Part shown: positions 2,888 through 39,700 of the stretch, piece by piece
How the letters are laid out: every line of letters begins with the position of its first letter
How positions within the stretch are numbered: the first letter of the stretch is position 1
NCBI RefSeq assembly: GCF_026210795.1
Contig: NC_089436.1
Coordinates: 4,898,001-4,962,000 of the forward strand
DNA length: 64,000 bases
Reading direction: 5' to 3'
DNA from: Rhizophagus irregularis
Taxonomy: Eukaryota > Glomeromycota > Glomeromycetes > Glomerales > Glomeraceae
Program-made: the position numbers and the translations under genes
Notes under the pieces: model-generated
The model's database searches: none
What the model saw: the letters and a program-made list of their open reading frames with translations, nothing else
What the model was told of the DNA's origin: nothing

Positions 2888-3764
2888 TAATGCTTCGATT
2901 CGGGTAGAAACCGTTATCCAGATAAATTAAATAAATTATCCGGGTTTTATCTGGATTATCCAGTTCGGATATAAATCTGGATATATCTGGATAGAAACCG
3001 AAACCCGGATAAGATTATATAAAAAATTTTTTTCATTGATCGATCTTAACAAATAATATCAGTGGCATTAACTTAATTAAATTTTGACTTGATATTTTTA
3101 ACGAAATTAGTGATATTTTATTAATTTTAAATAAAATAAAATTTTAATTTCGGCTGGCACTACGAATTTTGCCTGAATTATGTCAATTTTTTGAAAATTT
3201 GAGAACCGTAAAATTTTGCAATAAATGCATTATTATAAATATAAAAACACATTAAAATTGTAAAATAATGGAAGATTATGTATAAACTAATTATTTTTAT
3301 TAGATTTATATACTATTTTGTAATATAAATTAATCAATTCAACCTAATTATTAGAAAAAATCTTTTTTTTTTAAATTATAGATCAACAGTAATTTGGGCC
3401 AAACATATAATGGTGGCCAAAAATACAAAAATCCCAAATTTTGTTTAGCTGGGCTGCCTCTTTCTTGACAAATATCAATTTCGCAAAATTCGGGCTGGCA
3501 TTATAGATGGCCTGAATTACTACCGACCATTGAATATTCTACTAGTAATTTTAGTATGATTTAACAAATAGTAATTTAATAGATAATAATAAGTAATTTA
3601 AATGATTAAAAAAAATTTTTATAATTTTTTTTATCCAGATAACAGGTCAAACCGGATATTTTCTATCCAGATATTTTATCCAGATAAAACTGCAGTATCT
3701 GGATAGCTATTTTTTTTGGATATCTGGATACTGCAGTTTTATCTATGCACAGATCGAAGCACTA
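2888..3764. mobile_element. Non-autonomous hAT-like element with TATCCAGATA words
   Basis: The ends are inverted: TAATGCTTCGAT on the left and, read from the right end inward, TAGTGCTTCGAT. It is flanked by a perfect 8-bp direct repeat, ACGTGACT, at 2880-2887 and 3765-3772. An 8-bp duplication with such ends is typical of hAT transposition. The subterminal parts consist of iterations of TATCCAGATA and its complement; the centre is plain AT-rich sequence with no transposase frame. It is therefore a passenger element needing a transposase from elsewhere. It is inserted inside an older repeat. Confidence 0.85.
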
Positions 3765-3772
3765 ACGTGACT

Positions 3773-4550
3773 GTTATACAGGAAAACAATTATTATATAG
3801 TAGATATCCTTCGATCTCAATAATTTAAATTATATTTCATTGTACTGATATTGAAGATTATATAGTACTTTACTGTATAAAGTTTACATATTATTGTATG
3901 GGATAAAACGGCCATGCCGTTTTATCATATCATTAAATATCTTTAAGTATCACATATACACGTACAATAATTAATTTTACCGTATAGTTTGTAGATTTTC
4001 ATAATGAAATTTTATTGCAGACCATAAATCAAAAAAACTCTGCTACTGTAAAATTAAAGAATCTGGCAAAAAAAAAATACTTTATTTAAATTAAATTAAG
4101 GATATTAGTATAAAAGGTATCATATTACCAAAGTTGCGTAATAATCCACAAATAATAGGGTTGACTCCCTTGAACTTGACAAATTTGTGATAATTAATTG
4201 ACACTTTTACTACATAAAAAAACAAAAAATAAATATACTAACAAAATAGAAAAATAATCTAGGGAAATTTATAATTGTCATGCCATAGATCCAAATTACT
4301 CTTTCCATTTTCCCCTCTTAAATGTACAAAAAATTGAACTTATTACTTCTATCAAAGTTAATACTATAGACATTATTTGTCCAAAGTTCCAGTTCCAAAC
4401 TTCTGAAATTGAATTTTTTTGTACTGTCAATTCAATTATGACTATTAAACCTATTAGAAACCCAAAAATTTATGATTGATAATACACCATCCACATCATT
4501 CCCATCATTCCCATTATTTGCATTATTTGCATTATTCACCGCTTCTATCC
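3773..4550. other. AT-rich non-coding stretch
   Basis: I see no gene. It includes the short inverted pair AAAACGGCCATGCCGTTTTA near 3905 and, near 4385, a GTTCCAGTTCC word also found at 5225-5320. The rest is unremarkable. Confidence 0.5.
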
Positions 4551-5196
4551 AATTTTAAGAAAAAATGTGAAAATTGAAATAACTCTGCAACTAGCGATCG
4601 TATAAAGACGTACAATAGCTCATTAGAATCATCTCACTAAGGCATATCAAATGGTGGTAAGATCATGTCTCTAGTATTGATAGATACCTTTCTAATGCTG
4701 ATTTTCTAAAATTATTACCTAGCATGAATTATCTCATAATATACCGATACTAGAGACATGATCTTACCATCATTCAATTTGTCTCACTGAGACGGTACTA
4801 ATGAGCTATAGATTATTCTAATACAATCAGTAGATGATGGGTTATATCTTAGATCAGAATTTTTATTTTTTGATATTCAAAAATTTAAAAAAATGCGAAA
4901 ATTAAGATAACTCATTATGTAATGGTCATAAAAAAATGAAAAAAGACTCATTAGATTCGTCTTATTAAACCTATCGAATGATGCTAAGATCATTTTTCTG
5001 GGATCAATAGATACAATTCTATCGCTAGTTTCATAAATATTGTTTAGCGTTGATTATCTTGTGATATATCGAGGCTAGAGAGATATTCTTACCACCATTC
5101 AACGCGTCTTGGTGAAATGATTCTAATGAGCTATTATACATCTTTATATTATTACTGGTTGCCAAGTTATTTCGATTTTCACATTTTTTCTTAAAA
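4551..5196. repeat. Compound fold-back element (two foldbacks in tandem)
   Basis: The outer arms (about 4551-4640 and 5105-5196) are inverted copies sharing TTTTAAGAAAAAATGTGAAAA and an AATAGCTCATTAGAATCAT stretch. Within the element each half is itself an inverted repeat. In the first half, GTGGTAAGATCATGTCTCTAGTAT is mirrored by ATACTAGAGACATGATCTTACC. The second half is a more diverged version. The result could fold as a large cruciform or four-arm structure. No coding frame exists. It is probably a MITE or foldback element; I could not identify a target duplication. Confidence 0.7.
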
Positions 5197-5217
5197 TAAA
5201 ATAGAATTAAACTGAAC

Positions 5218-5322
5218 TGAATAGTTCCAGTTTCAAAACCAAACTGAGAACCGAACCGAATTTTTGGTCAGTTTTGGATTGGTTTCCGGTTCAAACTGGA
5301 ACTGTTTGAAGCTCTAATCCTA
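5218..5322. repeat. Iterated GGTTCCAGTTT-type words
   Basis: This is a short stretch of self-complementary repeats of AAACTGGAAC and GGTTTTGGA type, ending in GAAGCTCTA. That resembles the right ends of the TA-starting elements elsewhere in the window. I could not find a matching left end, so it is probably a remnant. Confidence 0.4.
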
Positions 5323-5329
5323 ATAACAG

Positions 5330-6029
5330 TACCTATTATAGAAGAGAAAAATCATATAATCAAGCAAATCCATTTAAACTTATTGACAAAAACTAATTGT
5401 ATAGATGGATTAGAAGGTTTGGAATAGGATCAGGAAATAGTTTATTAATTTTATTTTTTACTTATAAACATAAGCTTAAAAACTGTCAAAGCTAAAGTTA
5501 GTAATAAAAAAGTTTACTGTGTCCTAGAATCTTGATTCAAGAGGCTACCAATAAAATGCTCAAGAGCATTGATAGGAAAATTTCTAGACAAATAAGCACT
5601 AAGGACAGAAAGAGTAAATTCTTTAGGGAAATAATCAGCCATTTTTTTAGATGGGCTGTAGTTTTGCTTACTTTTACTACAAATATAAAGTTCAAAATTT
5701 CAACCTAATAAAAAGACTAAGACTATCACAATTCTAACTGAAGTGTTAATTGCAAAGCATGACTCCATGTTTTCTGATTATATTTTATTTGGCAATGATT
5801 GGTTTTATGGTCATAATAGTGATGGGAACCAGGGATATTTAGCAGAAATTGTAACAGATGCAAAAGATGTCTGATTAAGACGTCAGAGGAGTGGAAGCTA
5901 TGGCCCACAATAAGTAAATTCGATTTTTATTCGATAATCGATTTAAAATTGATTCTTATCAATTTTCGATAAATTTGATTATTGTAAAATCAATTCCAAT
6001 TCAATCCCTATTTAGCACATATTTCAGAT
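5330..6029. other. No gene recognised
   Basis: This is AT-rich sequence. Short open frames exist but lack recognisable domains or splice context. Confidence 0.4.
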
Positions 6030-6345
6030 GTGCAATGCATCACTAAAATGACAAGCAACATGGATTGTCAAAAACATTCATTCTGCGAAGGCAAATACAG
6101 TTGTAAGAATATTACAGAAAGTAGTGCATTTGCCAAAGAAATTGGAAAGCTTTCAAAAAGGATTGAAATACTAGAGGATGACAGCCAAATATTTAAGAAT
6201 GAATTTGCAGTTAGATAAAGTAGACATGTTAGAGAAAAAAATTGATGAATACTGCTTCTGTCTTAAATCATTTGATGATATTAATGAGGTTATTGACAAG
6301 GTTGAATTAATAATTGGCATAGTTCCCGCCAAAAGGTAAAACTGC
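6030..6345 (+). pseudogene. Coiled-coil gene fragment with frameshift
   Basis: An open segment with ATG at 6048 encodes a cysteine-containing start (MTSNMDCQKHSFCEGKYSC) and a heptad-like helix (AFAKEIGKLSKRIEILEDD) before a stop near 6216. The next frame continues the same character immediately (LDKVDMLEKKIDEYCFC, then INEVIDKVELIIGIVPAKR), so a single-base shift has broken one coiled-coil reading frame. It lies upstream of the U-box and coiled-coil fragments at 6.9-8.4 kb and may belong to the same dead gene. Function unknown. Confidence 0.45.
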
Positions 6346-6935
6346 AACCTATATTATCTCTGAACTACTACTAACTAGTCCAAAGCAATGATCATTGATC
6401 ATTTTTTGCTGAGCTACATGCATGTACTCCTATGAACTAATTTTCATATAAACTATGCCTCTGTCCTTTGGTCTTTTTTCCCATACAAAGTACAAACGCT
6501 CAAGGAATGTCTTTGGCTCAAAAATGCTTTATTACGACACAGAACTAACCTTATGGGCTGAGGACTTTGCAATTCTAAGATTGTTAGGCGTAAAGCTATT
6601 TTAAGAGGTTCCTAATGAGACTAAATCTTTCGAGAAAGATCACTAAACTAAAAGGAATCAAGATTCTGATTTTATGTACCTTCAAAACTTTCTTGGTATT
6701 ATGCGATAGTGATAATCATTTTCCTTGTCTTCAGTGTTCAGTCTTTTTATTTTTTCGTGATCTACAGTATGTAATGAGACATAAAGCGCCAAAAACTGGT
6801 AAAAGTTGAGGCAATTTTCTTCGCAAAAAATCAGAGTCCTGCGGATATGTCAGAAATAGGTCTCGGAGGGACTAGTTGTGCTTTCATGTGAAATTTCAGT
6901 TGTCACTATGGGCCTTATATTTATGAATTAAAATT
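6346..6935. other. No gene recognised
   Basis: Open frames here (for example 6615-6809) have no recognisable domain. The stretch separates two pieces of a broken coiled-coil locus and may contain degenerate exons. Confidence 0.35.
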
Positions 6936-7533
6936 ATGGCTAATGACCAAGAAAGGAAGCAAATTTTAAATATGGCTGATAGCATTGATAAAATCGAAGG
7001 TGCCAGAAAAATATCAATAGATGTTTTTCTTTGTGCAGGGTTTAATACTATTGGGGATCTGAAAAAAGAAGGTGCTTATGCACAATGTATTTAACAAGCA
7101 ATTGATGTACTTAAAGAAGAAAGACTAATAATTATTGGAATGCACTCGCTTGCCAATGTGTAGAATTATTGAACAAGTGAAAAATACCCAGGCATATCCT
7201 TTTATTCCAAGCCAATACATGTGTACTATAACTTTTGTTTGGATAGAAGATCTGGTTATAGCGCCCTCTAGAATCTCTTATGACAGAAAAGGACTTGAGA
7301 GATGGATTAATATTCATCATTCCGATCCCTATACACGTCCAATCTCTTGGGTTTATATGAATAAAAATCTTAAAGATGTTATCGAGCATTATAGAAATTA
7401 TTTTCTTCATTTTTCGATCCCATTCACAAATTATTTAGTACTGTCATATATTTTGCATTCATATCATATAGCAGTATATCGCATTTTTTATGTACTGAAA
7501 GCCGTATTCTGGTACAATGTATTTATTAAATAA
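6936..7533 (+). pseudogene. Degenerate U-box domain gene fragment
   Basis: The frame from ATG 6936 encodes a helical segment beginning MANDQERKQILNMADSID. It has an in-frame TAA after EGAYAQCI and a TAG near 7160. After a frame change it continues into a U-box-like stretch. That stretch contains YMCTITFVWIEDLVIAPS, SYDRKGLERWI, then DPYTRPISWVYMNKNLKDVIEHY. These match the order of U-box elements: C/P-I-T-x-(4)-D-P-V, S-x-x-SYDR-x-x-I-x-x-WI, DP-x-T, and an N-x-x-L-x-x-x-I helix. The usual Pro is Thr and the DP pair is DL, which weakens the E2-binding surface. U-box proteins are E3 ubiquitin ligases; here the stops and frame change argue for a pseudogene. Downstream of the domain the frame becomes hydrophobic and non-descript. 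Confidence 0.6.
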
Positions 7534-7626
7534 AGCAGTTTTAACATGATAATGTCATTTCAAATGCATGTAATCTTAAATCTTTTTTCTGCTTGGAAAA
7601 GTGATTGATGAGTTTAAGAGAAACAT

Positions 7627-10073: not shown

Positions 10074-10317
10074 TAAGGTTACTTGTCTAAACCTCTTCAA
10101 AATCCTACGATTAGTTTCGTCAAAATTTTACTATAGATTTATTATAGTTTTGGCAGAGTTTCGGCAGTTTTGGCATTTATAATAAGTTTTGGCAGTTTCG
10201 CCTTTCTCCAAAGTTTCGCCAGTTTTTTAATATAACTTTAATATAATTTCGGCAGAATTTCGCTTTTCGGCGAAACGCCATCTTGCCTGAACCCCTAGGT
10301 TTCGGCAAGCAACCTTA
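10074..10317. mobile_element. 244-bp hAT MITE, TAAGGTT-end family, copy 1
   Basis: The ends TAAGGTTACTTG and CAAGCAACCTTA are inverted. A perfect 8-bp duplication, AAGGTGGC, flanks it (10066-10073 and 10318-10325). The body is iterated GGCAGTTTCG / CGAAACTG words. Removing the element and one duplication copy restores the Tc1 reading frame (GLFKGGTTRQ). The ends match the autonomous hAT at 23624-27396, the likely transposase source. Confidence 0.93.
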
Positions 10318-10411: not shown

Positions 10412-10965
10412 TGTAGAGCTCTGAATGGGTCAGGTCAGGTCAGGTTATATCAGGTTGTCTGTTTGACTTGACCTGACCTGAAACCTGAAAAATTTCAGGA
10501 CTATTTTTATTAAAGTATTGAAAAAAAATGGTACAAACCTTTTTTTTTTAATATAATATTATGAAAAAAAACGTTTTTGCAACGTTTTTTATTAAAATAT
10601 TGAAAAAAAATATTGCAAAACGTTTTTTTTAAATGTTTTCGCAACGTTATTATTGAAATATCAAAAAAAAATGTTACGAAACATTTTTTTAATATAATAT
10701 TATGAAAAAACGTTTTCGCAACGTTTTTTCTCGAAATATTGCGATTCAACATTTTTATATTAAAATCATATAAAAAAGTGAATCGCAATACTGCAACTCA
10801 CTTTTATTATATAGTAGAATCAATAGTTTCAGGTCATCAGGTCAATCAGGTCAGGTCAATCTTCATACCTGACCTGAATTTTTTTTAAAAATCTCATACC
10901 TGACCTGAATTTCAGGTCAGGTCAGGTCAGGTTACCTGAATTTGGCTGACCTGTTCAGAGCTCTA
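10412..10965. mobile_element. Non-autonomous hAT-like element with CAGGT words
   Basis: The inverted ends are TAGAGCTCTGAA and TTCAGAGCTCTA. Subterminal arrays of CAGGTCAGGT / ACCTGACCTG bracket an AT-rich core with palindromic AAACGTTTTTGCAACGTTTT words. Flanks GGAAAAAC (10404-10411) and GGAAAAAG (10966-10973) are an 8-bp duplication with one mismatch; two extra bases precede the left TAGAGC. Merging the flanks restores the Tc1 frame (CKGKSLETQ). No transposase is encoded. Confidence 0.82.
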
Positions 10966-10993
10966 GGAAAAAGTCTTGAAACTCAGCCACGAA

Positions 10994-11731
10994 TAGTGCT
11001 CCGAAAAAAATCTGATCTGATCAGATTTGATCTGAATCTGATCTGTCAGATTCAGATCAGATCAGATAAATTTAATCTGCAGTTCAGATTCAGATCAAAA
11101 AAATTTGATCTGAACAAATCAGATTAGCTTCAGATCAAATCAGATTAGATCAGATCAGATTCAGATTAGGCTTATTCAAAATCTGAATCTGATCAGATTG
11201 AATCTGACAGATTTGATTCAAATTTCAGATTTGATTTTACTAATAATTTCAGCCGAATTCATAATGCCGGCTGGAATTAATTCCTAAATTTTAACTCCAG
11301 CCAAAACGGATATGTCGATCATTTCCTTTTTTGGCGATAGCCGTTCCACAAAAATCAATTTTTATAGGAACCAAGTCGGAATTTTGTGTAACCTAAATTT
11401 CCTTTTTAGGAAATTCAATAATTCCTGCCAGAGTTAAGTGCATAATTCTGGCCGAATTACATATTTACAAATTATAGCTTTAGAATTTATAATATATTTA
11501 TTCAGATTCAAATCAGATTCAAATCAGATCAGATCAGATCCAGATCAGATCATATTTAATCAGTTTTGAATCAGATCAGATCAGATTTGAATCTAATTAA
11601 ATCTGATCTGATTCAGATTAAATTTAAACCGATCTGATTCAGATCAGATCAGATCAGATCAGATTTAATTAATTTCAGATCAGATTGAATCTAAGTAAAA
11701 TCTGATCTGATCTGATCTGTTAGGAGCACTA
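10994..11731. mobile_element. Non-autonomous hAT-like element with TCAGATC words
   Basis: The ends TAGTGCTCCG and GGAGCACTA are inverted. The 8-bp flanks GCCACGAA (10986-10993) and GCCATGAA (11732-11739) differ at one base. Both outer thirds are long runs of GATCTGATCAGATT-type words, so GATC occurs at extreme density. The centre is a plain AT-rich segment with AATTCCTGCC/GGCCGAATT words. Skipping the element restores ETQPRSGHPK in the host Tc1 transposase. Confidence 0.88.
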
Positions 11732-12695: not shown

Positions 12696-12939
12696 TAAGG
12701 TTGCTTGTCTAAACCTCTTCAAAATCCTATGATTAGTTTTGTCAAAATTTTAATATAGATTTATTATAGTTTTGGCAGAATTTCGGCAGTTTTGGCATTT
12801 ATAATAAGTTTCGGCAGTTTCGCCTTTTTCCAAAGTTTCGCCAGTTTTTTAATATAACTTTAATATAGTTTCGGCAGAATTTCGCTTTTCGGCGAAACGC
12901 CATCTTGCCTAAACCTCTAGGTTTCGGCAAGCAACCTTA
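12696..12939. mobile_element. 244-bp hAT MITE, TAAGGTT-end family, copy 2
   Basis: Same length, orientation and almost the same sequence as copy 1. The ends are TAAGGTTGCTTG and CAAGCAACCTTA, with a perfect 8-bp duplication GCCTTAAA (12688-12695, 12940-12947). It is inserted in the non-coding 3' part of the decayed hAT at 12282-17590, so it is younger than that element. Confidence 0.93.
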
Positions 12940-20814: not shown

Positions 20815-21297
20815 GAAATTTTATAGCGTGAAAAATTGCGTAAGTTTACGATTTTGTAAGTTTACGAAAGTTTATGGCATAATATTTCGAAAAATTTCAA
20901 AATATTACGTAAGTTTACAATTTTGTAAGATTTATGTGATATTACGGTTAAAATATTACGTAAGTTTTCAATATCGTAAGATTTACGCAATATTACGGTC
21001 AAAATATTCTGCAAATTTATGAAACTGTAAACCTGCGTAATATTACGGTTGAAATATTTCGAAAATTTATGAAACTGTAAACCTGCGTAATATTACAGTT
21101 AAAATATTTCGAAAATTTACGAAACTGTAAACCTGCGTAATATTACAGTTGAAATATTTCGAAAATTTACGAAACTGTAAACCTGCGTAATATTACGGTT
21201 AAAATATTTCGAAAATTTACGAAACTGTAAACCTGCGTAATATTACGGTTGAAATATTTCGAAAATTTACGAGATTGTAAACTGCATATGCAGTAGA
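20815..21297. repeat. Iterated TTACG word region with a 50-bp tandem array
   Basis: From 21001 to about 21275 a 50-bp unit (starting RAAATATTTCGAAAATTTA, containing AAACTGTAAACCTGCG) repeats about five and a half times in perfect register. The first base alternates A,G,A,G,A,G from unit to unit. Upstream (20828-21000) are looser AATATTACG words. The left boundary TATAGCGTGAAAAATTGCG resembles the inverted right end of the related region ending near 36630, so it is probably a TA-ended element of the same type with a lost right end. Confidence 0.8.
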
Positions 21298-21299
21298 AC

Positions 21300-22566: not shown

Positions 22567-22810
22567 TAAGGTTGCTTGCTGAAACCTAGGGGTTTAGGCA
22601 AGATGGCGTTTCGCCGAAAAGCGAAATTCTGCTGAAACTATATTAAAGTTATATTAAAAAACTGGCGAAACTTTGGAGAAAGGCGAAACTGCTGAAACTT
22701 ATTATAAATGCCGAAATTGCCAAAACTCTGCCGAAACTATAATAAATCTATAGTAAAATTTTGACTAAACTAATCGTAGGATTTTGAAGAGGTTTAGACA
22801 AGCAACCTTA
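22567..22810. mobile_element. 244-bp hAT MITE, TAAGGTT-end family, copy 3 (inverted)
   Basis: It begins TAAGGTTGCTTGCTGAAACC and ends GACAAGCAACCTTA, and is flanked by a perfect 8-bp duplication AATATATC (22559-22566, 22811-22818). The sequence is the reverse complement of the copies at 10074 and 12696 and has exactly the same length. It is full of GCGAAACT words. Confidence 0.93.
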
Positions 22811-23110: not shown

Positions 23111-24096
23111 ATTAAATAAATAAATCTGCATTTTATTTATGATATGGGAAACGTGACCATAAATTCTTTAAGGATATAATTTTATTAAAATAAATCAAAA
23201 CTCCTATATCAAGTGACTAAAAAATATATTTATTTACGAAATATTCATTTTGTTTATCAAATCGGGGTACTATGTGAACGACACCATGTATAGACTCTAT
23301 AGCTACAAAGTTATATAATTCTATCAATTTTAAGTGAGGACATCCATATAAATATGGGTTCCTTTTAGATTTAAAATCGTACCATTGAATTAATGCGAAA
23401 TTTAGCGGTAAGTCTGTTAATACTTCTGCTAACAATAAGGCCTATAAATAATAAATATTTATTAATACTTTATAATAAATTATTACATAAATTGGAAAAA
23501 TACCTGTCCATAACAAAGTCCTTTGTCTGATATATAATCATTTGATTCTTCAGAATCCATTGAAATAGCTATGTCGCTAAACCATACTTTATTATGATAC
23601 CTGTTTGTGGCACGCATTATGGCTAAGGTTGCTTGCCGAAACTAAGGAGTTTCGGCATGCCGAAACTGCCGAAACTGCCGAAACTAGGTTTCGGCAAGCA
23701 ACTAAAAATGCCGAAATGCCGAAACTGCCGAAACTGCCGAAATGCCGAAACCATTTCGGCATTTCGGCATAATTTCGGCATAATGCATATTAATATTTAA
23801 TTATAGTTTCGGCATTGTTTCACTTTTTTAATAGCACAAGTCACCACATGATCACAACCAATCATATTTGAACACAACATTTTAATGATAATCTTATGAT
23901 CTTCAAAGGTTACCTTTCGTTTTTTTTATTTTTTATTCATTCATATTACCATTACCCAAGCTTTTAATCTAGGCCCTGAAATTGACTCATGTCATATGAT
24001 ATCCATTATGGATAGTTTAAATTATTTCGTGTTCGCGGTTCGCCCCACATTACTTTCTTTACTTAAATACATACAAAATAAAAAAAAAATTTCATT

Positions 24097-26375
24097 ATGA
24101 CCAGCACCTTCGACTCAGAAAAAAATAAAAATAGAGGAGGAAGGCCACTTAGTTCTATCTGGGAAGACATTACTAGAGGAAGCCACGTTGGTTCAGGAAA
24201 ATATCAGGCCACCTGTAAATATTGTAATTTTTCCTGGTCAAGAGGAGATGTTTCAAAACTTGAAGAGCACCTCGCCAATCACTGTTCAGAGGCCCCAGCG
24301 TCTGTTGTCAGAAGATATTTGAGTAAAGTATTAGAACGAGAAGATAAAACCAATAAAAAAAGAAAAATAGTTGCCAATAATCAACTAACTATGACGGATT
24401 ATCATGATTCTACGAAGATCCCTGATGCTAGAGTAACGAGAATTAATCGTGCTCTGGCTAAATTTTTCGTCGCATGCAGCATTTCGTTTCGGATAGTCGA
24501 ACATCCATTTTTTGTTAACTTCGTAAAGGAGCTCAATTCTGCATATGAGTTGCCAACCAGAGAATTCTTGTCAGATCAATTACTTGAAAGGGAGTTAGCA
24601 TTGGTAAATTCGACTGTAACGACTGTCATTGAAAATGGAGCCAATTTAACATTGGGTTTGTTAATATACTTTTTAAATAATATTTAAATGCATAATTTAA
24701 AAATAATATTGTTATAACTTATAATTCAGCTTTCGATGGTTGGACCTCTCCTACTCATCGTTCGATTTGGAACTTCGTTATCATGACTCCCACAAGGGAG
24801 GAGTATCTATACAAACTTGTTGATTTATCCGAAAACTCTCATACGGCTAATTACGTAGCGCAAGTGGTTGGAGAAATAATTGAAAAAATTGGATCAAATA
24901 AAATATCGGCGATTGTATCTGATAACGCCGCAAACGTACGAAACGCACGCGCGACACTTCAAGAAAAGTATCCTAATATCGAGAATGTTAGATGTATCGC
25001 GCATGCAGTAAATCTGATCGCATGCGATATTGTTAAAGAAAGTTTTGGCGATCGTTTATTGCGGAAGGTCAATATTTTAGGCTCATTTTTCAAAAGTTCT
25101 CACCAAGCTGGCGCAAAACTTACACAACTCATCAAAGAAAATAATATTCGCGGAGGAGGTATAAAGTTGTATTGCAAAACGCGGTGGACAACTGCCAGCG
25201 ATTCAGTGGATTCAATAATTAGATTGGAAACGGTACTAGAACAAATTATTACTAACGACAGTAATTTATTGAACGACAAAGTCAAACGTGTAATCCAAAC
25301 ACGAAATTTTTTTTCCGATTTGCGTATTCTTTCGTTCGTATTGAATCCATTGAGAAAAGCCGTCTTGGCTTTAGAATCCAAATCAGCAACGCTTGGAGAT
25401 TGTTTTTTAAGTTTGATACGACTATCAGCAGTTTTAAAAAAATTGCCCAGGTCTTTCAATCAAAACTTTCGTAACCATTGTTTCAACGTGATGAACGAAA
25501 GATTTAAGGAATTTGATGACGATAAATATATTACCTGCTTTTTCCTAGATCCACGATTTAGGAATAAACCTCTTAAAGATAAAGCTTATTCAAGAATCGT
25601 GAGATGTGCCACTACTATTGGGAAGAGGTTAGGATTTGATCTTAAGGAATCTAGAACTTTATGCGAGCAAATCAAAGATTACCGTGATGGTAAGTCACCC
25701 TTCGATCTCGACGAGTCTTGCTCTCTAGATGATCCTTTAAACTGGTGGAATTTGATTGATACTGACCCTCGACCGAACAGCCTCCCAAGAATTGCGCGCC
25801 ATTTATTAGCGATTTGTCCAAATTCAGCTAGCTGCGAAAGAGGATTTTCTACTCTCGGTTGGTTATTTAATGATCGACGTTTAAATTTAAATATAAGTCG
25901 ACTAGAATCCATGGGTAAAATGATCATGCATTGGAAGTCCAATGCCAAGACAGAGCTTGGGTTTTACGGTATAGAAAAAAATAATACTCGTATTAGCGAA
26001 ACTGAAATGAACATTCGAATTGCAGAAGCTCTGGCAGAAACAAATGATGATGATGATGATGAATGTGACGTTTTACCGAATGAAAGTTCATCCCATCAAA
26101 TTACAGTTCCTCCAGATAATTGTATTGTTCTAATAGAAGATATATGGATCGATAAATTTGTCGATTTATCACACGATTTAGTAATTAAAGAAATCGGGGA
26201 GATTCCGGACGATATTCTTGATGATTCTGATGACGAATACGAAAAAATTAATGATGATGATTATGATGATGATAATGATGAGAATGATGATGAGAATGAA
26301 AGTGAAGGGAGAGGAAATTTCGATTACGATGTAGAGGATTTATTGGACGAATTTATCGAAGAAGTTGTTGATTGA
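24097..26375 (+). CDS. hAT transposase, intact, 734 residues
   Basis: Exons 24097-24655 and 24730-26375 (intron 74 nt, GTTTGT...TTCAG) total 2205 nt in one frame. The BED zinc finger lies at about residues 10-65 (RGGRPLSSIWEDI, CKYCNFSW, then H-x-x-x-HC). The splice creates NLTLAFDGWTSP with the first catalytic Asp (residue 189). SAIVSDNAANVRNAR gives the second, followed by VRCIAHAVNL and CKTRWTTASDSVDS. NSASCERGFSTLGWLF is the C-terminal dimerisation motif with the conserved Glu. The last 100 residues are strongly acidic (runs of Asp, Glu and Asn). The enzyme excises and reinserts elements with TAAGGTT ends. The GCCGAAACT arrays at both ends are the likely BED targets. The spliced FDGW motif, an uninterrupted frame and flawless ends argue that it can be expressed. 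It probably also mobilises the three 244-bp MITEs in this window. Confidence 0.93.
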
Positions 26376-27190
26376 ATAAAATTTTAAAAATCTATTTTTT
26401 TTTATGTATATAATTTTAATTTTACATATAATTATAAAACTTACTTATCGTTTGAAATATTTTATGTATATATTGTTGATTGTTGTAGCAATAAATTAGT
26501 AAATTTAATAAAGTTGTTTTATTAACAAATTGAAATTCCGAGATAAAATCTCCATGTTGCAGATTATGTGACGCAAGTAGATGTAATTACTACAAGAAAA
26601 TGTTAACCAATCAGGCACCTACCCGATTGGTAATTTTTTTTGATCGGTCACCTGATTTATTTAATAATACCGATTGATAGTTTAATTTACCGATTGATTT
26701 CTGGCTAGGAAGAACAATATAAATTTTAACCTTATATAGAATACTGATCTACCGATGATTAATTCGCGATTAATATTTAATTATGCAGACTTCAATTTTT
26801 ACAATAGTTTTACAATTAAAATATATTATATGCAATTCTGTACGAAATACATTAACATTGTTAAATAACAATCATTGGTATCATACCACACCGATAATCG
26901 GTGTTGGCTTGACTTTTTTTTTATTTTATATTTCCAACTTTATCGTCTCCTTTTTATTCTTTTATTCCCCTTTAAATTTATTTTTCCAACTTCACTAATA
27001 AATTTACATATATTAAAAAACATTATTATATTTATTTTATTGTTTTATTGTAATATTTTTATTTTATCGAAATAACAATATTTTTGTTGAACATAAATTA
27101 AATCAATGATAATATATCTAAAGTTCGCGTCCTAAAAGTAAAAAAATATATATATACACAGTGTAGGATAGATCGTTTTTTGACCTGTGA
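26376..27190. other. 3' non-coding part of the intact hAT
   Basis: This is AT-rich with AATAAA-like signals just after the stop, and an ACCGATTG word iterated at 26620-26780. Hydrophobic open frames near 26783-27075 arise from T-rich sequence and are not supported as genes. Confidence 0.5.
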
Positions 27191-29738
27191 AATGCCGAAA
27201 CTTTAATTAAATCATTAAGAAATAGTGACGAAATGTCGAATGCCGAAACTATTTCGGCAGTTACGGCAGGTTACGGCAATTCGGCAAGTTTCGGCAGTTT
27301 CGGCAGTTTCGGCATTTTGGCATTTCGGCAGTTTCGGCATTAATAAACCAGTTTCGACTTTCGGCACCAGGTCAAATGAGTTTCGGCAGGCAACCTTAAT
27401 TATGGCACCATTTTCCAGTGTTACTGATCCGTATATGTTTATTCAGGTTTCACCAATAATTGTGAAACCATCAAGTAAATCTAGATATGAATCCAGACAA
27501 CTTATAATCTAGCAAAACCGGTCTGCATTTTATTGTCTACGGAATCTTTTTTTTCATTAAAAAATGTATTTGCATCTCATAAAGAGAAATCAAAGAGTCT
27601 TGCAGAAAATTTACAAGTGCGAGGTGTTTTTGCTGGATTCACTGAATGTTGAGACATTCTAATAGATATTGCTTGACGTTTTATCTATTAATTTAATTTC
27701 CATCTTAAGTTATATAATAAATATATACAATAAATAAATTTCCAAATACTTACAGTTCGTAAAAGCTGAGGTTCGACATCTTTTTTATTGCTAATTCGGT
27801 AGGGTATTTTAACGAAATATTTGTGAAGACTTTCGTAAGTTTCTGTGGTATAGCCATTTATTGCGCCATAAGATCGTATTGAGTCAATAATGTGATAAAC
27901 CCATGAATGCAATTTAGGCAACTTCAAATTGGAAGGAGAAACAAATTTAAAAGCCTTGACAAACATTCGCGCCCATCTATGTATTGCATCCTAAAATTTA
28001 AATGTTAATTTAATTTATTTAATTTAAATTTTCGATTTTACTAAAATTTTAATACATACATTAAATTTCTCTAAGTCACTTTCACTAAATTCTTCATATC
28101 TACTTAAAATATACATTTCATTCCAATATTCGTACAATTTCACAAGATCATCATTATTTACAAAATTATCTACTTTGTTATTATTTTCATCATATAAATT
28201 ATCAATAACAAATATCATGACTTTCATCAAACTTCGATATTCATTAGCAGTTAATCTTGCAATTGACTGCAGTCCATTGGAAAAAATTTTAATGGCGGAA
28301 AAACGTGGAATTGCTGCTAGACGGTGATCTACTTCTTCAACTAATTTATTACCATTAACATGTTGCAATTTTAAGATATCGCACGTGAAGATAATTTGAT
28401 AACGAAATAAACCCAAATCTAAATGATGCATTCTGTCAGGAACAGTAGCCAAATAGATATTTATATTCCTTGATAATATAAATATTTATAATTAATATAT
28501 ATATATATTATTATAATTATTTCTACTTTTGCATACTTATGGCAAATCCCAAAAAAAATTGGGTACAGATTCTATGCAAACAGATTTTTGTGTATCATTT
28601 TCAAAATATTTACGCATTTCATCATGAGTTCTTAGTATTACATCATTAACCGATAAGTTTATATTTGCAAGATTGTCCCTTTTAATTAAACAGGAGTGAC
28701 ATGGAAGGCTTGAATTGGAGGATTTATAAACTAAACAAAAACTTGCGGCTTCTGGCCAATCTGCAATAATAGTTGAAACTCTAGGATAAACCCAGGTATT
28801 TTCATTATTTATAAAAAGGTCTATACCATCTTTTAATAAAATAATTGGTTCTAGTAAATGACGTAAAGATTTATGAAAGGTATCACGAACCAGATCTTTA
28901 TTTGCAGCTTCTAAAATTGGTAAATATCCCAAAAGTTGCTTTGCATCCTATTTATTACGACGCCATATTGGGATATTGCCTAATGAAATATATATTGGAT
29001 GCAATTGACTTTTTCCTAATGTATCTGTAGTTGTTGCATCTGAATATAAAATAATTGATAATAATTTGGAACCAGTAGGTAAGGATTCTTGCGTAGTTTT
29101 CCACCATTTTCCAGTGTTTTGTTCACTGTAAATACTTTCTCTATTATACTATAAAATAATATAAATAAATTAAAATAATATTATTTAAATCATTGAATTA
29201 ACTAATATTTACTATTTACCTCATAGTTTTCGTAAGATAGCGCAAAATTTTGTGTTATGTCAGGAACAGTTAAGATATTTTTGATGCACTGTATTAAGTT
29301 TTGATAATAAAAAAAATAATTTTTATCCTTATGTTTTGTTATAAGAACTTTACTAAATTCTAAATTAGAAAACTTCATATTATTCATAAATGCTCGTCCC
29401 TGTTCAATATTTTTTGGTAATGGTGATTCTGTAAGATTTGAATGTTTATTAAAAAAACGTATTATTTCATTACCACCTTTATTGTTTATTTTATATTTTG
29501 TTACTAATAACATTAGATCTTTATAAGCATCATTAGGAAATTCTGTGCAAGTTTTGGTATTGAGATTTTTGGGTTCTTCAAAAATTTCAGGCTCTTCAGA
29601 TGAATCTAATATATTTTCAAAGTTACTATCTTCAAGGCTCATCTCTGATATTGCACTTCCAATACTGTCAAATGATATATTTTGTACATTATTATCATCA
29701 TTCACCTAAAATTATAAACCAAAATGAGTTAGTATAAT

Positions 29739-32781: not shown

Positions 32782-32830
32782 TGCATATACAATTTCTGTG
32801 ATTTTTTAAAATGCGGATTTCCGTAATTTT

Positions 32831-33663
32831 ACGATATCGTATTTTCTGGCCAATCAAAATTAGGCTGATCCTTGCATGTGATTTAATCATTTAATCATTT
32901 AATCATGCATGCGTTTTTGTCTTATTTATTTTTGTTTCTTATTTCTTTATTCTTTTGTTCAATATTTTTAATTTTTTTGTCTCTTCTTTCTATTATTTCT
33001 TTAATTATATACAATATATTTACATATATTTCATAATTTATTGCTTTGCAGGTATAGAAATATTTGTTTATTAATACTAATTATTTTCATTTTTTTTTAC
33101 CTCTTTGTTATTTTGTATCGTAATACTAACAATAATATCCATGTTTCCTTTATTCCTTTTTACTTGTACTTTAATACTAACGATACTAACAATACTAACA
33201 ACATGTTTATTTTTTCCTTTCTCTTTATTTCTTTATTCTTTTGTTCAATTACTTTGCAGGTATAGAAATATTTATTTATTAATACTAATTATTTTAATAT
33301 TAACGCGTTTTTTTTTTACCTCTTTGTTACTTTATGTCGTAATACTAACAATACTATCTACGTTTCCTTTATTTCTTTTTACTTGTACTTTAATACTAAC
33401 GATAATATTCATGTTTCTTTTACTCCTTTTACTGTTTCTTTAACTCTTTTTACCTTAATACTAACAATAATAACAATATTTCTTTTATCTTTATATCTAA
33501 TACTAACGTTACTATAGCTGTTTCTCTTCTTTTTACGTCTAATAATATTGTTACTCTACTCTTTCTTTTTTTTACTTTATGTATTCTGTATATATTAATA
33601 AATACTTGTAATTTTTTATGGTTTAATAAAATTATATCTAATAAAACATATATTATATAAACT
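32831..33663. other. T-rich non-coding stretch with a tandem duplication
   Basis: A block of about 165 bp beginning TTTGCAGGTATAGAAATATTT occurs at about 33045-33205 and again at about 33252-33412, spaced by about 207 bp. Both copies contain TAATACTAACRATA words. The apparent hydrophobic open frames here come from this T-rich repeat. TTTAATCA repeats three times near 32885. Confidence 0.7.
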
Positions 33664-33666
33664 TAT

Positions 33667-33776
33667 AGTACAGAAAATGAAGTATTATTTATCGAAATAT
33701 TTTGAAATATTACGAAATATTAAGTTGTGTAAAATCACAGAATATTACGAATCGTCAAATTATGGAACATTACGCA
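33667..33776. repeat. Left part of a word-repeat element interrupted by a hAT
   Basis: CGAAATATT / AATATTACGAA words continue on the other side of the hAT (36251 onward). The left boundary TAGTACAGAAAATGAAG resembles the inverted right end TAGTGCGAAAAGTTGCG near 36626. The hAT insertion split this older element. Confidence 0.65.
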
Positions 33777-36250
33777 TAGGGATGGGCAAAATGCGGAAAT
33801 TTCATTTTATCACGCGCATGATGCGCATGATGCGCATCATGCGCATCATGCACATGATACACATAGTACTGTTATACAGAAAAAAAAAAAATACGATTTC
33901 TTTACAAAAAAATAAAATTTTTTATTATTTATTTTACTGAATTATTAACAAGATACATCAGAGTCATCAGCTTCATTATCATTAAAACTCTCTTCGTTTT
34001 CACTACTACTATTTACATCTTCATCATAATCACTTTCTTCATTTTCGCCTGAACTTTGAATTTCGTCATCTACAACTCCCCCGTCTAACGAAGTATTTTT
34101 ATCAAACCCGTTTGTAAACCCTTTCCATTCTGGCGTTTCTCGTGGCATTTGTAATCTATAATTGCTATAAATATACACTAATTTAAAGACACGATCAGCT
34201 CTCAACCGGTTTCGTTTTTTATCATGAATGTATGCAAATGCTGACCAATTTCTTTCAGACGCAGCAGATGATGTTGGAATAGATAAAACCTTTTTTGCTA
34301 CTTGAGTAAGTTCAGGTGCAGAATCACTAAAATTTCCACTCCACCAAGTTATAGGATCAACATTATCAGAAGTTTCCCAAGCAAGTTTATTCGCAAAAAC
34401 TCCAGTTTTTCTCCTATAATTCAAGATTTGTGTCCAAATAATTACTGCATTATCCGAATAATATTTTTGGATAAACTGCGAAATTCTATCCATTGAATTA
34501 GAAGTAAGATGGCAACCATGGAATGATGGATCAAGCAGATGCGCAACTTCCATAACAGGGTGGTAAATACTTTCCCACCTTTTTTTGATAATATTTTTAA
34601 TACTCGTATTATTTCCGTTTATATCAAAAACATAAACTTGAGAAATTAAATTTGATTAGTAATAATTTAGATTATATTTACCAAAGAAAAAAATGATATT
34701 TTACCTGATGATTCTAATTGATTGTAATACCAATCTAATACTTTAGATAAAAAAGGTGTATCCGATTCAAACATAGAAATTCCAATAACAAGTTCGTTGA
34801 GAACTTTGAGTAAATTATCAACATCTTTCCAAAACCCATCATTTAATACAATACTTCTCATATCATCATCAATTCTAACAGTTTGATTACGTGATAATTC
34901 TGTTACCGTTAATTCAATAGCAAGCTGATTTACTTGAAGTGAATTAAGGCAAATAGCTGATGATCCCCAACGTGTTTTTACAGGTAATTTAAGTGAAATT
35001 TGCTTATCATAACTGGATCTTTGATATCGTTTCAGAACTGCAGCTGGAATTTGATGTGATTTGAAATATTTAACGATTTTCTTTCCATTTTTTATAGTAC
35101 TATCCGCCCAAGGGAGTTTCATAATATCACCAATTAGAAGATTTAAGGAATGAGCTACACAGCCAAGGAAAACTATGTTTGGATATTTAATAGCCAAAAG
35201 TTTCCATGCTTTCTTCATTGAAGATGCGTTATCAGTAATAATTGCTGAAAGTTTGGAATGATCAATCTGTGATATAACTTTATCAATGTCGGCTGCAATA
35301 TTTTCTCCTGTTTGTTTGATTTCACCAGTTTGATGAGCAGAGAAAAATACTGGTCTTGGCGTGGTAATTAAATAATTTGTCCAATGTTCTTGCAACATAT
35401 TTGACCTAAAAATATTTATACAAGATATTTATAATGAATATATAAATAATAGTTAAAAAAAATATATCACCTACCATCCATCAGAAATCAAACAAATATA
35501 ATCAGTTGATTTAATCAAATTATTTATTTCATCTTTTGTATCCTCATATACCGTGTCAAGTAATGTTGTTGATAAAGCTTTTCGTGAGGGCAATTTAAAA
35601 CAAGGACGAAGTTTTTGAAAAAGAATTTTAATTGGTTCTAGTTCAGATAATGATAAGAATAATCCACATCGGTAAACTGCTTGTGCAAATAATAGTTCAG
35701 CTTCATTTTGTTCTGCTGAAGTTATTTTGTCAACAAAATTATTTATTGATTTTTGCGGTTGTTTCTTAATAGTAACAATATTATTTTGCTCTGTTGGTAA
35801 ATGGGAATTAATACGTTGTTTTGCCTTAAGTTTAAAATCTGGCCCAAAAAATCCTTGGAGAACTGTTATACTTGCACTTGAACAGGTTTTTAAATGTGCA
35901 ATACATTTGTTAGCAGCAGCATTTAGTTCATGATTACAGTATTTGCATTGTGCACGGGCTTGCCGAAAACCAGCCACATGTCCAAGTTTATTAAAGTGAG
36001 CCCAAATAGGGCTAGTTGGAGGCATTTTTGAACTGATTGAACGAAGAAAAAAATTTTTTTTTGTGAAAGATCTAATGTAATACAAATTTATTATAAATTC
36101 CATTTTTGTTAATTTATAATTTTGGCCGGAGTTAGGGTGTAAAGTTTACCAGAATTACAACTTATAATTTATTACAAAATTTATCATGCGCATAATGCGC
36201 ATTATGCGCAATGCATAATAGCAACACATAATGCGCATGGCACATCTCTA
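33777..36250. mobile_element. Apparently intact hAT element with GCGCAT words
   Basis: The ends TAGGGATGGGCAAAATGCG and, from the right inward, TAGAGATGTGCCATGCGCAT are inverted. A perfect 8-bp duplication ATTACGCA flanks it (33769-33776, 36251-36258). Subterminal arrays of GCGCATGAT / GCGCATTAT words lie at 33820-33855 and 36182-36236. A complete spliced transposase gene fills the interior. It is inserted in an older CGAAATATT word element. Confidence 0.94.
33945..36025 (-). CDS. hAT transposase, intact, 647 residues
   Basis: Three exons on the minus strand: 36025-35475, 35405-34705 and 34636-33945 (introns 69 and 68 nt). They total 1944 nt in one frame. I chose the start MPPTSPIWAHFNKLG, which opens directly into the BED finger (CKYCNHELNAAANKC, H-x-x-x-C); an ATG 78 bases upstream is in frame. 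The first splice reconstructs ISDGWSNMLQEHW with the first catalytic Asp. SAIITDNASSMKKAW gives the second, and VFLGCVAHSLNLLIGD and VKTRWGSSAICLNSL follow. SAASERNWSAFAYIHDKKRN is the dimerisation segment with the conserved Glu. An acidic Ser/Asp/Glu tail ends the protein. With flawless ends this looks like a potentially active element. It belongs to a different hAT lineage from the transposase at 24097, judged by motif detail. Confidence 0.93.
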
Positions 36251-36626
36251 ATTACGCATCATAGAATTTCGAAATATTTTAAAAAGTTGCGAAGTATTAC
36301 GCAGTAAAATTACGGAATATTACGAATCGTAAAATTACGAAGCCTTGCATACAGTAATATTTCGAAATATTTTAAAAAGTTACAAAATATTACGCTTACG
36401 CAAACTTGCGGCGAGTCTGAAAACTTACGAAATATTATGTAAAATTACGAAATATTGCGAACCGCAAAATTACGGAATATTACAAATCGTAAAATTACGA
36501 AGCTTTGCATATCATAATATTTCAAAATATTTTAAAAAGTTACAAAATATTACGCTTACGCAAGCTTGCGGCGGGTCTGGAAGCTTACGAAATATTATGA
36601 TGTGTAAACTTGCGCAACTTTTCGCA
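36251..36626. repeat. Right part of the word-repeat element (AATATTACG words)
   Basis: Iterated AATTTCGAAATATTTTAAAA, AAAATTACGAA and GCGTAATATT words with an internal near-duplicate (36248-36440 against 36430-36600). It ends with TTGCGCAACTTTTCGCACTA. The end region, including an ATCAGGAAATT motif just outside, is shared in inverted form with the word region starting near 20813. Confidence 0.75.
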
Positions 36627-37799
36627 CTATATAATTTCCTGATGACCTGTTGAGTTTTCTGAAGAGTCGAACAGTTCTCATCTGGAATAATATCTTAGCA
36701 GTTCATTAGATCAGGTAGGATTTTCTGGATCTGGGTAGTTGATCTGAAACTTTACTTTTTAAGGTTTAAAGTTGTGATATACAAGTTTGGGATTTATAGT
36801 TTAGTTTACTTTTCTATATGTACAAATTTGTGTGACTATTTCCTTTTGTTTTAGTTTTATTTATTTTACTTTTCTTTTCATTGTATTTTGATCGAACGAA
36901 GTTATAAATAATTAATAAAATAACTGTTAGCCTTTCAAATGTGAGTTGTATCAGTATTGTTCAGGTTCTTATAGTTCAGTATAATCTTATTACACTCAAT
37001 TCGAAAAATCCAAAGCTGTTTTTAATACAAAAGAAAATATTATAAACAATTCAAACATAAATTAAACAAAAAATAAGTATCTAATTTACCTTTCAGTCCA
37101 TTTAAGTTCCAAGAAGTTGGTGGTATTATTGGTGTCCCTAAAAAGAAGAAAAGAAATGTTAAAGCTTAGAACATTATTTCTTATTTACATTTTTTAATCT
37201 ATACCTTTTCCCTTTTTAATTTACCTTAATATTAATTAAGTCCGTTCGTCAAAGTTGTTAGATATTCTCACAAATAGAAAAATATTTTTTTCAGGCTAAC
37301 TTAAAGGAGCATTGTAAAAAAGTGTCTTTAAAAAGGCCAAAATAAATGATTTTAACTTAAAAAAGGATGAAATAAATTTTTAAAAAAATTATAAAAAAAA
37401 AAAATTTTTTTGATATATCATACTATGTAATTTTGTACCGTAAAATTTATATTTGGGGGTGCTTAAATTTAGAGGTGTTAAATTTTAGTTTATATAGACA
37501 TTGCAACAAAAGTGACAGTGATGCTTAAATTCGGTAGGTACTTAAATTTGAGATTTTATGGTAGTTTAACCATTATATATGTATACAGTGTTACTATTAG
37601 GCTCAGGTAAAAAACATAAATTCAAAAAATCCAGTTAAGCATCCTTAACATCCTGTACACCTTTTTTTTAAATATGATTGGTGAGAAATAATATAGGTTA
37701 TGACTAATATAATGTATAGTTAGAAATTACTATATTTAGTAAATCTGACTCATTATCTGATAAATCATTATCTTTATAATCCAAAGTAAAACTACTTTA
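36627..37799. other. No gene recognised
   Basis: This is AT-rich sequence. Weak polyadenylation-like signals and a splice-like CTTACC...TTTCAG context occur, but there is no coherent coding frame. Confidence 0.45.
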
Positions 37800-38204
37800 C
37801 AGAAACTTTAAGTTTTCAAGTGTTATCATTTCGATATCATTTCAATATCATTTCAATATCGATTTAATATCGATACGATATCGAAATAAAGTATTATCAC
37901 TTCGATATCATTTTGATATTAAATCGATATCGAAATGATATCAAAATGATAATAGAAATGATATCGAAACAACATCTTTAAGTTTAATTTAAAGATATCA
38001 TTTCGATATCATTTTAATTATCATTTTGATATCATTTCGATATCGATTTAATATCAAAATGATATCGAAGTGATAATACTTTATTTCGATATCGTATCAA
38101 TATTAAATCGATATTGAAATGATATTGAAATGATATCGAAATGATATCGTTAAGATAAACTTAACGATATCGATTCTATATTGATTAAAAATGGTAAGTT
38201 TCTG
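37800..38204. mobile_element. Palindromic foldback MITE of GATATC words
   Basis: The ends CAGAAACTT and AAGTTTCTG are inverted, with TA directly outside on both sides (37798-37799, 38205-38206), as for Tc1/mariner MITEs. Both arms are runs of CGATATCATTT / AAATGATATCG, so arms are self-complementary within and between. The centre is near 37985. No coding potential. Confidence 0.85.
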
Positions 38205-38267
38205 TAAACTAGGAAACGGGAACCGTTGTAAGTCTGGAGTGAGGTATAATAATAAAGATGTCTACTA

Positions 38268-38336
38268 ATTAGCAGCATAACGCCTTGGAATTCCGGTAAT
38301 TTTCTGCTGATTAGCAGCATAACGCCTTGGAATTCC
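38268..38336. repeat. 42-bp direct duplication
   Basis: ATTAGCAGCATAACGCCTTG...GAATTCC occurs at 38268-38294 and 38310-38336. It lies just downstream of the MULE transposase end and may be part of that element's non-coding terminus. Confidence 0.75.
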
Positions 38337-39124
38337 TGGACAGAGAAACTCACGTGATTGAAAATTTACACGTTATTTCCATAGATCATCATAGTGCATA
38401 AACATATATAGTCCTTCGCTTCGCTCCGGACAACAATTAAAATCAAGCTAAAATGATAAATTATGTGCTATTCCTCTAAGGAAATCAATAACTTCTCTAT
38501 TATCCCAGTCATTATAAACTGTTTGAATTTGAATTTCTCGTTCTCGATCCTTTTTCTTTTGTAAAGGGCATGGGGCTCCTCATAAAATTGATTTGATATT
38601 ATTTTCAACTTGATTTTGTTCATACTGTATTTCTTTTATTATTTTGAAGATACCTATGTGTGCATGACCCACCAATGTATTCCATCTCCTATGCCATGCT
38701 TGGATGATGTTCTGAGTTCTAGGAAAAGTGTACTCAATATTGTCTGTGACCGACCAGATTGAGGGTGGGAATAATGGATCAGGGCGGATTATATTCCCAC
38801 TTCTTGTTGTTCGTCGTATCCTACCACAGATGTAATAGATTTCAAACCATTCCATGATGCTATTGGCTTCTTCTGGCATGATGGCTCTTAATTCATCAAA
38901 TGCTGAAGGTATATTGTTATGAGGTAAGAAAGCCAGAGCAGGAATGTGGCGAATGAGTAAACTGAAAGTTTCGTCAATTCCATACTGAACTGTAAGGCCA
39001 AATTCTTGCACTTTGCGATAAATATTCTGCAATAAATGAAAGTGGTAACCTTTATTTTGAACTTCTTGGAATTCAGCACGTATGGCATTAATCGCAGCAA
39101 TTTCAAAATCGGTTATAATAAACT

Positions 39125-39700
39125 TAGAGGTAGGCTCCGAATCTGGTCAATCCGGTCATCCTAGGATCAATCCGTCTAATAGGCGGATTCGGATTGATCA
39201 GATGAATCCGTCAAATAGACCGGATGGATGACCGGATATCCGATCAATCCTATACGGGATCGACAAAAAAATTCCTTTTTAGGAAATTTTATGTTACACG
39301 ACCGGAAACTAAATTTAGAAAAACTGGTTTTTTGTGGAATGGGTATCTCCAAAAATGGAAACGATCGACATACCCGTGCGTCACGTGACAACAATTAAAT
39401 ACCTAATCATAAATTCCGGCTGAAATTAAATGATCGGCGAGAAATTTCCTTTTTAGGATTCTTGTGAAACCCAAAATTTCATTTTTGCTGGGAAACAAAA
39501 TTTCCTTTTTTGGATTTGTGTAACGTTACTCATACCCTAAAAAGGATAATTCCATGCCGATTACTTAATTCCGGCCGGAATTATAATCAATCCGGTCAAT
39601 CCGCGGATAATCCGATGATCCGATTTTTTTAATCCGGATTGATCCGTCACGTGATCATCCGGATGACGGATTGACCAGATTCATCCGGAGCGCACCTCTA
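39125..39700. mobile_element. Non-autonomous hAT-like element with CCGGTCATC words
   Basis: The ends TAGAGGTAGGCTCCG and, from the right, TAGAGGTGCGCTCCGGAT are inverted. A perfect 8-bp duplication AATAAACT flanks it (39117-39124, 39701-39708). Both outer parts are runs of GGATTGATCCG / AATCCGGTCATCC; the centre has GGAAATTCCGGCCGGAA-like words. It interrupts the MULE gene exactly between Q-F-I and T-D-F-E, and removal with one duplication copy restores the frame. Confidence 0.92.

Follow-up and report, generated by a model that had tools for sequence, protein, structure and literature searches.

Family-specific word arrays in the ends of hAT transposons and their miniature derivatives in Rhizophagus irregularis, probable sites of BED-type transposase fingers

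The hAT transposons Hermes, Tol2, Tag1, Ac and Kat1 resemble the elements described here in their 8-bp target-site duplications (TSDs), short terminal inverted repeats (TIRs), dimerisation domains and many short repeats within the last few hundred bp of the ends, and probably in their BED domains. Internal-deletion derivatives of the Ds type and miniature inverted-repeat transposable elements (MITEs) of hAT origin are a known kind of element as well. For Hermes, whose ends bear 17 and 14 AAG(T/C) motifs, function in cells is reported to require about 220 bp at either end, and subterminal repeats close to the left tip are bound by the BED domains, with N67 and R70 among their DNA contacts (PMC10368747). 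BED proteins derived from hAT transposons—among them the CGG-binding proteins from hAT-19-type transposons—mostly have a preference for CGG or CGC, and in some cases for GCGC or AT-rich motifs; the motifs of four such proteins match the subterminal regions of their own elements, and an AT-rich motif is favoured by one protein from R. irregularis (PMC8097297). A catalogue of R. irregularis repeats names hAT-Ac, hAT-Tag1, hAT-19 and MITEs, and the part of its text considered here does not mention subterminal word arrays (PMC11075540). No description of such arrays in this fungus appeared among the listings of a literature search. Here, we analyse a window of 64,000 nucleotides (C8:4898001-4962000) in the 146.7-Mb, 32-contig assembly of R. 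irregularis, in which nine named elements, A to I, carry arrays of iterated short words (Table 1); L-numbers denote other loci of the same genome.

These elements probably represent several hAT lineages together with their internal-deletion derivatives (MITEs), with private subterminal words that most likely serve as sites for the BED fingers of the respective transposases. N-terminal BED-type zinc fingers would grip the subterminal words while the ends are brought together, as in Hermes, and the outermost words would help an oligomeric transposase to hold the ends. Cleavage would take place at the TA of the ends, and reinsertion would duplicate 8 bp. MITEs would retain ends and words without the gene and would depend on a relative's transposase for their movement. 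Binding, such trans-mobilisation and current activity are what we infer from the ends, duplications, copies, homology and word statistics observed here. Largely, the findings are known hAT biology in an array-rich form. Unlike in Hermes-type hATs, a single genome harbours many lineages with different words, and some of the arrays consist of words in nearly continuous tandem; the unusual aspects are how many word dialects coexist and how dense the arrays are. In contrast to the study of CGG-binding proteins, where binding was measured (PMC8097297), the words are known here from the DNA side alone.

Each named stretch was searched for TA ends with 8-bp duplications, and inverted ends starting with TA together with an 8-bp TSD were found in eight of the nine elements. 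Seven duplications are perfect—those of the elements at 2888, 10074, 12696, 22567, 23624, 33777 and 39125, just as a first-pass annotation of the window had claimed. Of two further duplications claimed with one mismatch, the one at 10994 was recovered as such. The one at 10412 was not: the 8-mers flanking the TA ends of element G (10414, 10965) differ in four of eight positions, and a one-mismatch duplication (GGAAAAAC/GGAAAAAG) appears only if the left end is shifted by 2 bp to 10412, where it reads TG instead of TA. In four other copies with the CAGGT end type of G (L005, L006, L056, L057), perfect duplications lie right at the TA. Elements B, C, D and E share the TIR TAAGGTTGCTTGC and one word, and hence the nine named elements make up six families. 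A further copy of F (L012) bears the TSD GTCAGAAC, and full-length copies of I are 83-99% identical.

Table 1. Elements with word arrays in the window and the open reading frames (ORFs) of the two full-length hATs
Feature	Coordinates	Strand	Word	TSD	Description
A	2888..3764		ATCCAGAT, 9 copies	ACGTGACT at 2880-2887 and 3765-3772, perfect	Non-autonomous
B	10074..10317		GCCGAAAC family	AAGGTGGC, perfect	244-bp MITE
G	10414..10965		CAGGTCA	Imperfect, shifted	Non-autonomous; ends TAGAGCTCTGAA
H	10994..11731		TCAGATC	GCCACGAA/GCCATGAA, one mismatch	Internal-deletion derivative of a hAT
C	12696..12939		GCCGAAAC family	GCCTTAAA, perfect	244-bp MITE
D	22567..22810		GCCGAAAC family	AATATATC, perfect	244-bp MITE
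E	23624..27398	+	TGCCGAAAC at both ends	ATTATGGC, perfect	hAT element
E, N-terminal ORF	24097..24687	+			C-x2-C...H zinc-finger-like motif
E, transposase ORF	24783..26375	+			DUF659 (PF04937) 53.5 bits; hAT dimerisation (PF05699) 25 bits, cut-off 21.4
F	33777..36250	-	ATGCGCAT	ATTACGCA, perfect	hAT element
F, transposase C-terminal ORF	33945..34553	-			hAT dimerisation (PF05699) 62.1 bits
F, transposase middle ORF	34667..35398	-			DUF659 (PF04937) 68.5 bits
F, N-terminal ORF	35471..36103	-			Zinc-finger-like motif
I	39125..39700		ATCCGGTC/CGGATTGA	AATAAACT, perfect	Non-autonomous

This architecture is more frequent than in simulated sequence. The window holds nine pairs with an exact 8-bp duplication, TA ends and a TIR match of at least 10/12, against a mean of 1.25 and a maximum of 5 over 40 windows simulated with a Markov model. 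Of these nine pairs, six correspond to claimed elements, one arises artificially from the arrays within element E (23624) and two are AT-rich; the elements at 33777 (TIR 9/12) and 10994 (mismatch) fall outside this count. With the TIR threshold at 9/12, 23 pairs stand against a simulated mean of 5.75 and maximum of 13. Word repetition is reached by none of 200 dinucleotide shuffles for A, C, G, H, I, E and F—which bears out the arrays noted earlier next to the ends of the two hATs, E and F—by one for B and by three for D. Genome-wide, TIR-pattern ends by far outnumber those of the reversed-pattern control: 74 versus 0 for TCAGATC and 550 versus 0 for CAGGT (both up to two mismatches), 69 versus 1 for CCGGTCATC and 1242 versus 0 for GCCGAAAC (both up to one mismatch), and 202 versus 2 for TATCCAGATA and 15 versus 1 for GCGCAT of element F (both exact). 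For CAGGT, TATCCAGATA and GCCGAAAC, the individual places are those of the first 100 ends, and since the patterns are short, some counted ends stem from related families; one TCAGATC-type end, for example, lies within a different repeat (L010). The observation of TA ends, 8-bp duplications and family-specific words is thus confirmed.

The two full-length elements of the window, E and F, both encode a hAT dimerisation domain detected by Pfam. For the RNase-H-like core, hAT-like_RNase-H or DUF659 matches were obtained in the hATs scanned, and L048 matches Hermes in phmmer (4.6e-14). For the four orphan words, it had been predicted that each has a transposase-bearing hAT elsewhere in the genome, and such partners were found for three: TATCCAGATA (element A), TCAGATC (H) and CAGGT (G). 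On the strength of the hAT domains of E and F and of these three partners, the interpretation given in the first-pass annotation is partly supported. TCAGATC ends lie 0.8-1.3 kb from hAT dimerisation matches on C29, C22 and C11 (twice), and in L001, L002 and L003 homology starts at the TIR and runs inward from unrelated left flanks. L001 alone of these three spans both ends (5245 bp, TSD CCAATAAG, dimerisation domain with 82 bits). Pfam identifies the dimerisation domain also in L002, together with an RNase-H-like domain, and the reading frames of all three are interrupted by introns or broken, so that no active copy is claimed. Element H (738 bp) is homologous to L001 over about 240 bp at either end (90% and 83%), with the gene gone. 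Hence, H is an internal-deletion derivative of an L001-type hAT, and like Ds-type derivatives—from which it shows no essential difference—it keeps both hAT ends without the gene.

For element A, bases 1-146 match at 86% at three places with an inward hAT dimerisation match, and bases 1-257 at 75-76% at two such places, among the 40 of 76 candidates that were scored; the domain lies about 3 kb inward, and once 5.5 kb inward across a nested hAT. A fourth match to bases 1-146, on C9, comes without an inward dimerisation match. The partners L037 (3435 bp), to which the first 146 bp of A are 86% identical, and L038 (3456 bp) agree in 3431 of 3458 aligned columns, carry different perfect TSDs (GAGATGTA and GTCTCAAG) and have two long ORFs (396 and 375 codons) with a dimerisation domain of 73.5 bits. 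For element G, ends that keep CGGGTC occur 99 times in the genome, mostly in another, TAAAGCTC type; one pair of them bounds L056 (4892 bp, TIR 14/14, TSD GTCCTCAC), which contains hAT exons and whose Pfam scores for zf-BED (16.2 bits) and the dimerisation domain (16.3 bits; cut-off 21.4, split over exons) are both below cut-off.

These partners also bear on how the arrays came about. In the first-pass annotation, arrays were thought to have grown in the non-autonomous elements, with selection for ever longer arrays as more sites draw more transposase. A, G and H do contain 9 ATCCAGAT, 14 CAGGTCA and 23 TCAGATC words, as such selection would have it; yet the ends of their hAT relatives contain similar numbers, namely 10 ATCCGGAT in L037, 11 words in L056 (CGGGTCA and CAGGTCA taken together) and 22 TCAGATC in L001. 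Element E even has 25 GCCGAAA in the 600 bp of its ends versus 3-5 in the 244-bp elements B, C and D, and the arrays of H are inherited, its ends being those of its hAT. We therefore regard such array selection as very improbable.

How general word arrays are was assessed in 15 hATs with both ends, to which two were added later, by comparing the most frequent 8-mer of the terminal 300 bp on each side with 200 dinucleotide shuffles. Repetition exceeds all shuffles in E, F, L001, L037, L042, L044, L047 and L048 and is likewise reached by none in L056 and in the inner hAT of L055; two shuffles reach it in L045 and L052. It is not significant in L046 (reached by 195), L051 (19), L054 (29), L004 (26) and L026 (19), which leaves significant arrays in 12 of 17 hATs. 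The middle 600 bp show nothing in 14 of 15 hATs (50 shuffles; L026 is reached by one). In all 12 array-bearing hATs the top word is present at both ends, and in two of them also in the interior (L044, three times; L056, twice). Two MULE copies, as well as two of a TTAA-flanked element, showed no significant array in the same shuffle test. As to the sample, 14 loci were examined for ends, of which L013-L025 had no credible end pair and enter no count and L026 was kept. Of 13 further loci, L043, L049, L050 and L053 were dropped for ends that were not credible—what looks like a duplication in L050 belongs to its word. Despite a one-mismatch duplication, L046 remained in the counts of words and of CGG, and L038, L039, L002 and L003 were not counted beside L037 and L001. 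Word arrays in hATs are thus common, not universal as had been supposed. Autonomous elements with the same ends and no arrays had been named as evidence against the binding-site idea; L004 and its like come close to this, but their TIRs differ from those of the window.

A second regularity of the ends is their CGG/CCG content, with medians of 31.5 per kb in ends versus 3.4 in interiors (about ninefold) and higher values in the ends of 15 out of 15 hATs (L056: 24.5 versus 8.7). Seven other trinucleotides show an end excess in at most 12 of the 15, and CTC in one. Two MULE copies used as controls have 8.7 per kb in the ends versus 10.4 in the interior, and 8.7 versus 14.8. CGG/CCG is part of eight of the 12 significant top words—four of the eight being ATCCGG words and a further two CGGTCCTA—and is missing from ATGCGCAT, ATCTGATC, TAGGATAA and ACCTGACC. 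The CGG density fits the CGG binding reported for BED proteins of hATs, and the GCGCAT words of F and GCCGAAAC words of E fit the motif range of the same study (PMC8097297).

Several observations weigh against the reading of the words as BED-finger sites. No Pfam family, zf-BED included, is called at 1e-3 in the N-terminal ORFs of E and F; among the hATs, zf-BED exceeds its cut-off in L004 only and stays below it in L037 and L056. Our own BED hidden Markov model was seeded with 11 of these sequences and is circular for the N-terminal ORFs of E and F, which are among the seeds. L004—a TA-ended, 8-bp-duplicating hAT—has no array above chance, as is the case for five of the 17 hATs altogether. 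The left end of L001 begins with CA instead of TA. G is similar to L056 over the outer 50-70 bp only; these two have the end type in common and are not source and copy. For CCGGTCATC (element I), no hAT partner was found among the 40 of 502 and 150 of 836 candidates scored. CGG/CCG is contained in four of eight distinct top words, and four copies of the TTAA-flanked element show 10.5-17.5 CGG/CCG per kb in their roughly placed ends versus 1.6-4.1 in the interior—the sign of the CGG end excess is hence not unique to hATs, and its size is larger in most hATs. In Hermes, about 70% of the activity is left after mutation of the putative left-end BED sites beyond the first 50 bp, and the right-end repeats make no BED contact in the structure (PMC10368747). 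With distal repeats dispensable there, the words of a long array need not all be working sites.

The dispensability of distal Hermes repeats (PMC10368747) at the same time strengthens an alternative, in which the arrays grow inside transposon ends by neutral, satellite-like slippage and the words are not binding sites. Many arrays are indeed tandem, more than a quarter of the hATs—the five mentioned above—lack a significant one, and a word array is also present at 37795-38209 in an element with a TA duplication, outside the 8-bp class. What neutral growth would leave unexplained is that the top word occurs at both ends of all array-bearing hATs and rarely in the interior, that the CGG excess is common to the ends of different lineages, and that the MITE and the hAT of one family keep the same word at both ends, which favours binding sites. 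Taken together, we consider neutral growth quite unlikely, and a role of the words as BED-finger sites remains our preferred reading.

Some words of the window might have originated by CpG loss. Element A contains no ATCCGGAT and L037 no ATCCAGAT, and G contains no CGGGTCA beside its CAGGTCA words, whereas L056 has six CGGGTCA and five CAGGTCA. This origin is only suggestive, since 29 of 40 CpG cells are unchanged between A and L037 (11 show transitions) and since L001 and H have the identical word TCAGATC. A more far-reaching scheme, which we deem unlikely, would have private dialects built mostly on a CGG core, with words and fingers co-diverging, one lineage per MITE family, and CpG loss (CGG to CAG/TGG) detaching old MITEs. 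If true, the private dialects would amount to a natural BED-finger recognition code.

A word-reader code had been proposed from the window alone; in the form considered here, a handful of residues in the BED recognition helix would determine the word, which could then be predicted from the finger across lineages. The comparison drew on word similarity (by 6-mer enrichment) and on the identities of the BED and dimerisation domains, first in 13 hATs and then in 14; L046 and L047 stand outside the Mantel tests as no BED piece was found in them. Words correlate with BED similarity (0.66, n=14), but at least as well with dimerisation-domain similarity (0.77). The partial Mantel correlation of words with BED given the dimerisation domain is 0.29 (p=0.019) for n=13 and 0.17 (p=0.11) for n=14, and without L042, L044 and L045 it vanishes (-0.01; word-BED 0.15, p=0.16; word-dimerisation 0.29, p=0.04). 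Moreover, L001 and L056 are related (52% identity in the dimerisation domain), yet their word similarity is 0.03. Word similarity thus follows relatedness, and a BED-specific part beyond it is not clear.

As to the helix residues themselves, L048 was aligned to Hermes, and the others by eye, at the positions of Hermes N67 and R70. At the N67 position, N is found, among others, in the elements with ATCCGGAT and CGGGTCA words (L037, L042, L044, L045 and L056), and T in those with CGGTCC and CGGTTC words (L048 and L051); E and F have K and the L001 family has G, and these have other words. ATCCGGAT is common to L037/L042 and L044/L045 at a BED identity of 32-43%. Conversely, L054 and L026 (N) as well as L004 and L052 (T) have no fitting word above chance or of that type. 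The residues hence sort only roughly with the word type, which is a lead and not a test, and on balance such a code seems rather doubtful.

Irrespective of a code, the array-rich ends suggest, for about ten BED-type fingers of one genome, which words these might bind, and the nearly identical two-ORF copies L037 and L038 belong to this set of candidates. The set might help to understand how BED fingers choose DNA—a domain that also serves in host regulators, CGGBP1 and the ZBED proteins among them—and how the specificity of transposases diverges among coexisting families.

It might also be asked whether some families are moved by another transposase—a DDE-like gene for the CAGGT- and TCAGATC-ended copies, or a MULE for the CCGGTCATC-ended ones. 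A DDE-like ORF does occur in L005 (CAGGT ends) and in L027 (TCAGATC-like ends), but homology stops at the TTAA-flanked ends of a separate element, which is nested in the hAT-type MITEs of both loci. The CCGGTCATC-ended copies, again among the 40 of 502 scored, comprise MITEs, incomplete copies and others that carry an insert near position 150. A MULE domain (PF10551; 42 and 33 bits) lies in this insert in L040 and L041, but the MULE is nested: it occupies one and the same internal position in the two loci and has an inner inverted repeat of its own. The ends and TSD of element I fit a hAT, and we regard mobilisation by such other transposases as most improbable. L006 as a hAT partner of I showed no link; L010 and L011 are one-ended fragments within another repeat, and L057, of the CAGGT type, holds a nested MITE but no hAT.

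As L040:113-3825 and L041:124-3581 combine the CCGGTCATC element and the MULE at one internal site with differing outer duplications, this composite appears to have transposed as a whole. The TTAA-flanked transposon is about 4.3 kb long and multicopy (L005:756-5062, L030:749-4853 and relatives; at least 150 matches, a number of which are parts of a single copy), has G(T/G)GA ends and bears an ORF (L005:2111-2884:-) that is DDE-like by eye and has no Pfam match.

Elements H and I share a 58-bp internal stretch (11306-11363 and 39320-39377). Including L007 (L007:409-558), three elements of different end families have internal stretches of 58-155 bp in common that are 77-84% identical, as if a filler module had been passed between MITEs of different end families. 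The element at 37795-38209 is near-palindromic and consists of ATATCATTTCGATATC-like words, with the TIR (C/G)TTTACAGAAACTT and TA on both sides; a second copy lies in L013. TTACG-type word arrays are found at 20831-21282, 33661-33776 and 36250-36600 of the window, with element F inserted in one. In L013, L019, L020 and L022-L024, relatives of the TCAGATC transposase lie within arrays of AAAAGATGC or AAAACGTT/TTGCGAAA words, which are possibly further dialects. In L027:2535-7946, L010 and L011, TCAGATC-like ends adjoin tandem short exon-like units with borders that, by eye, are GT...AG-like.

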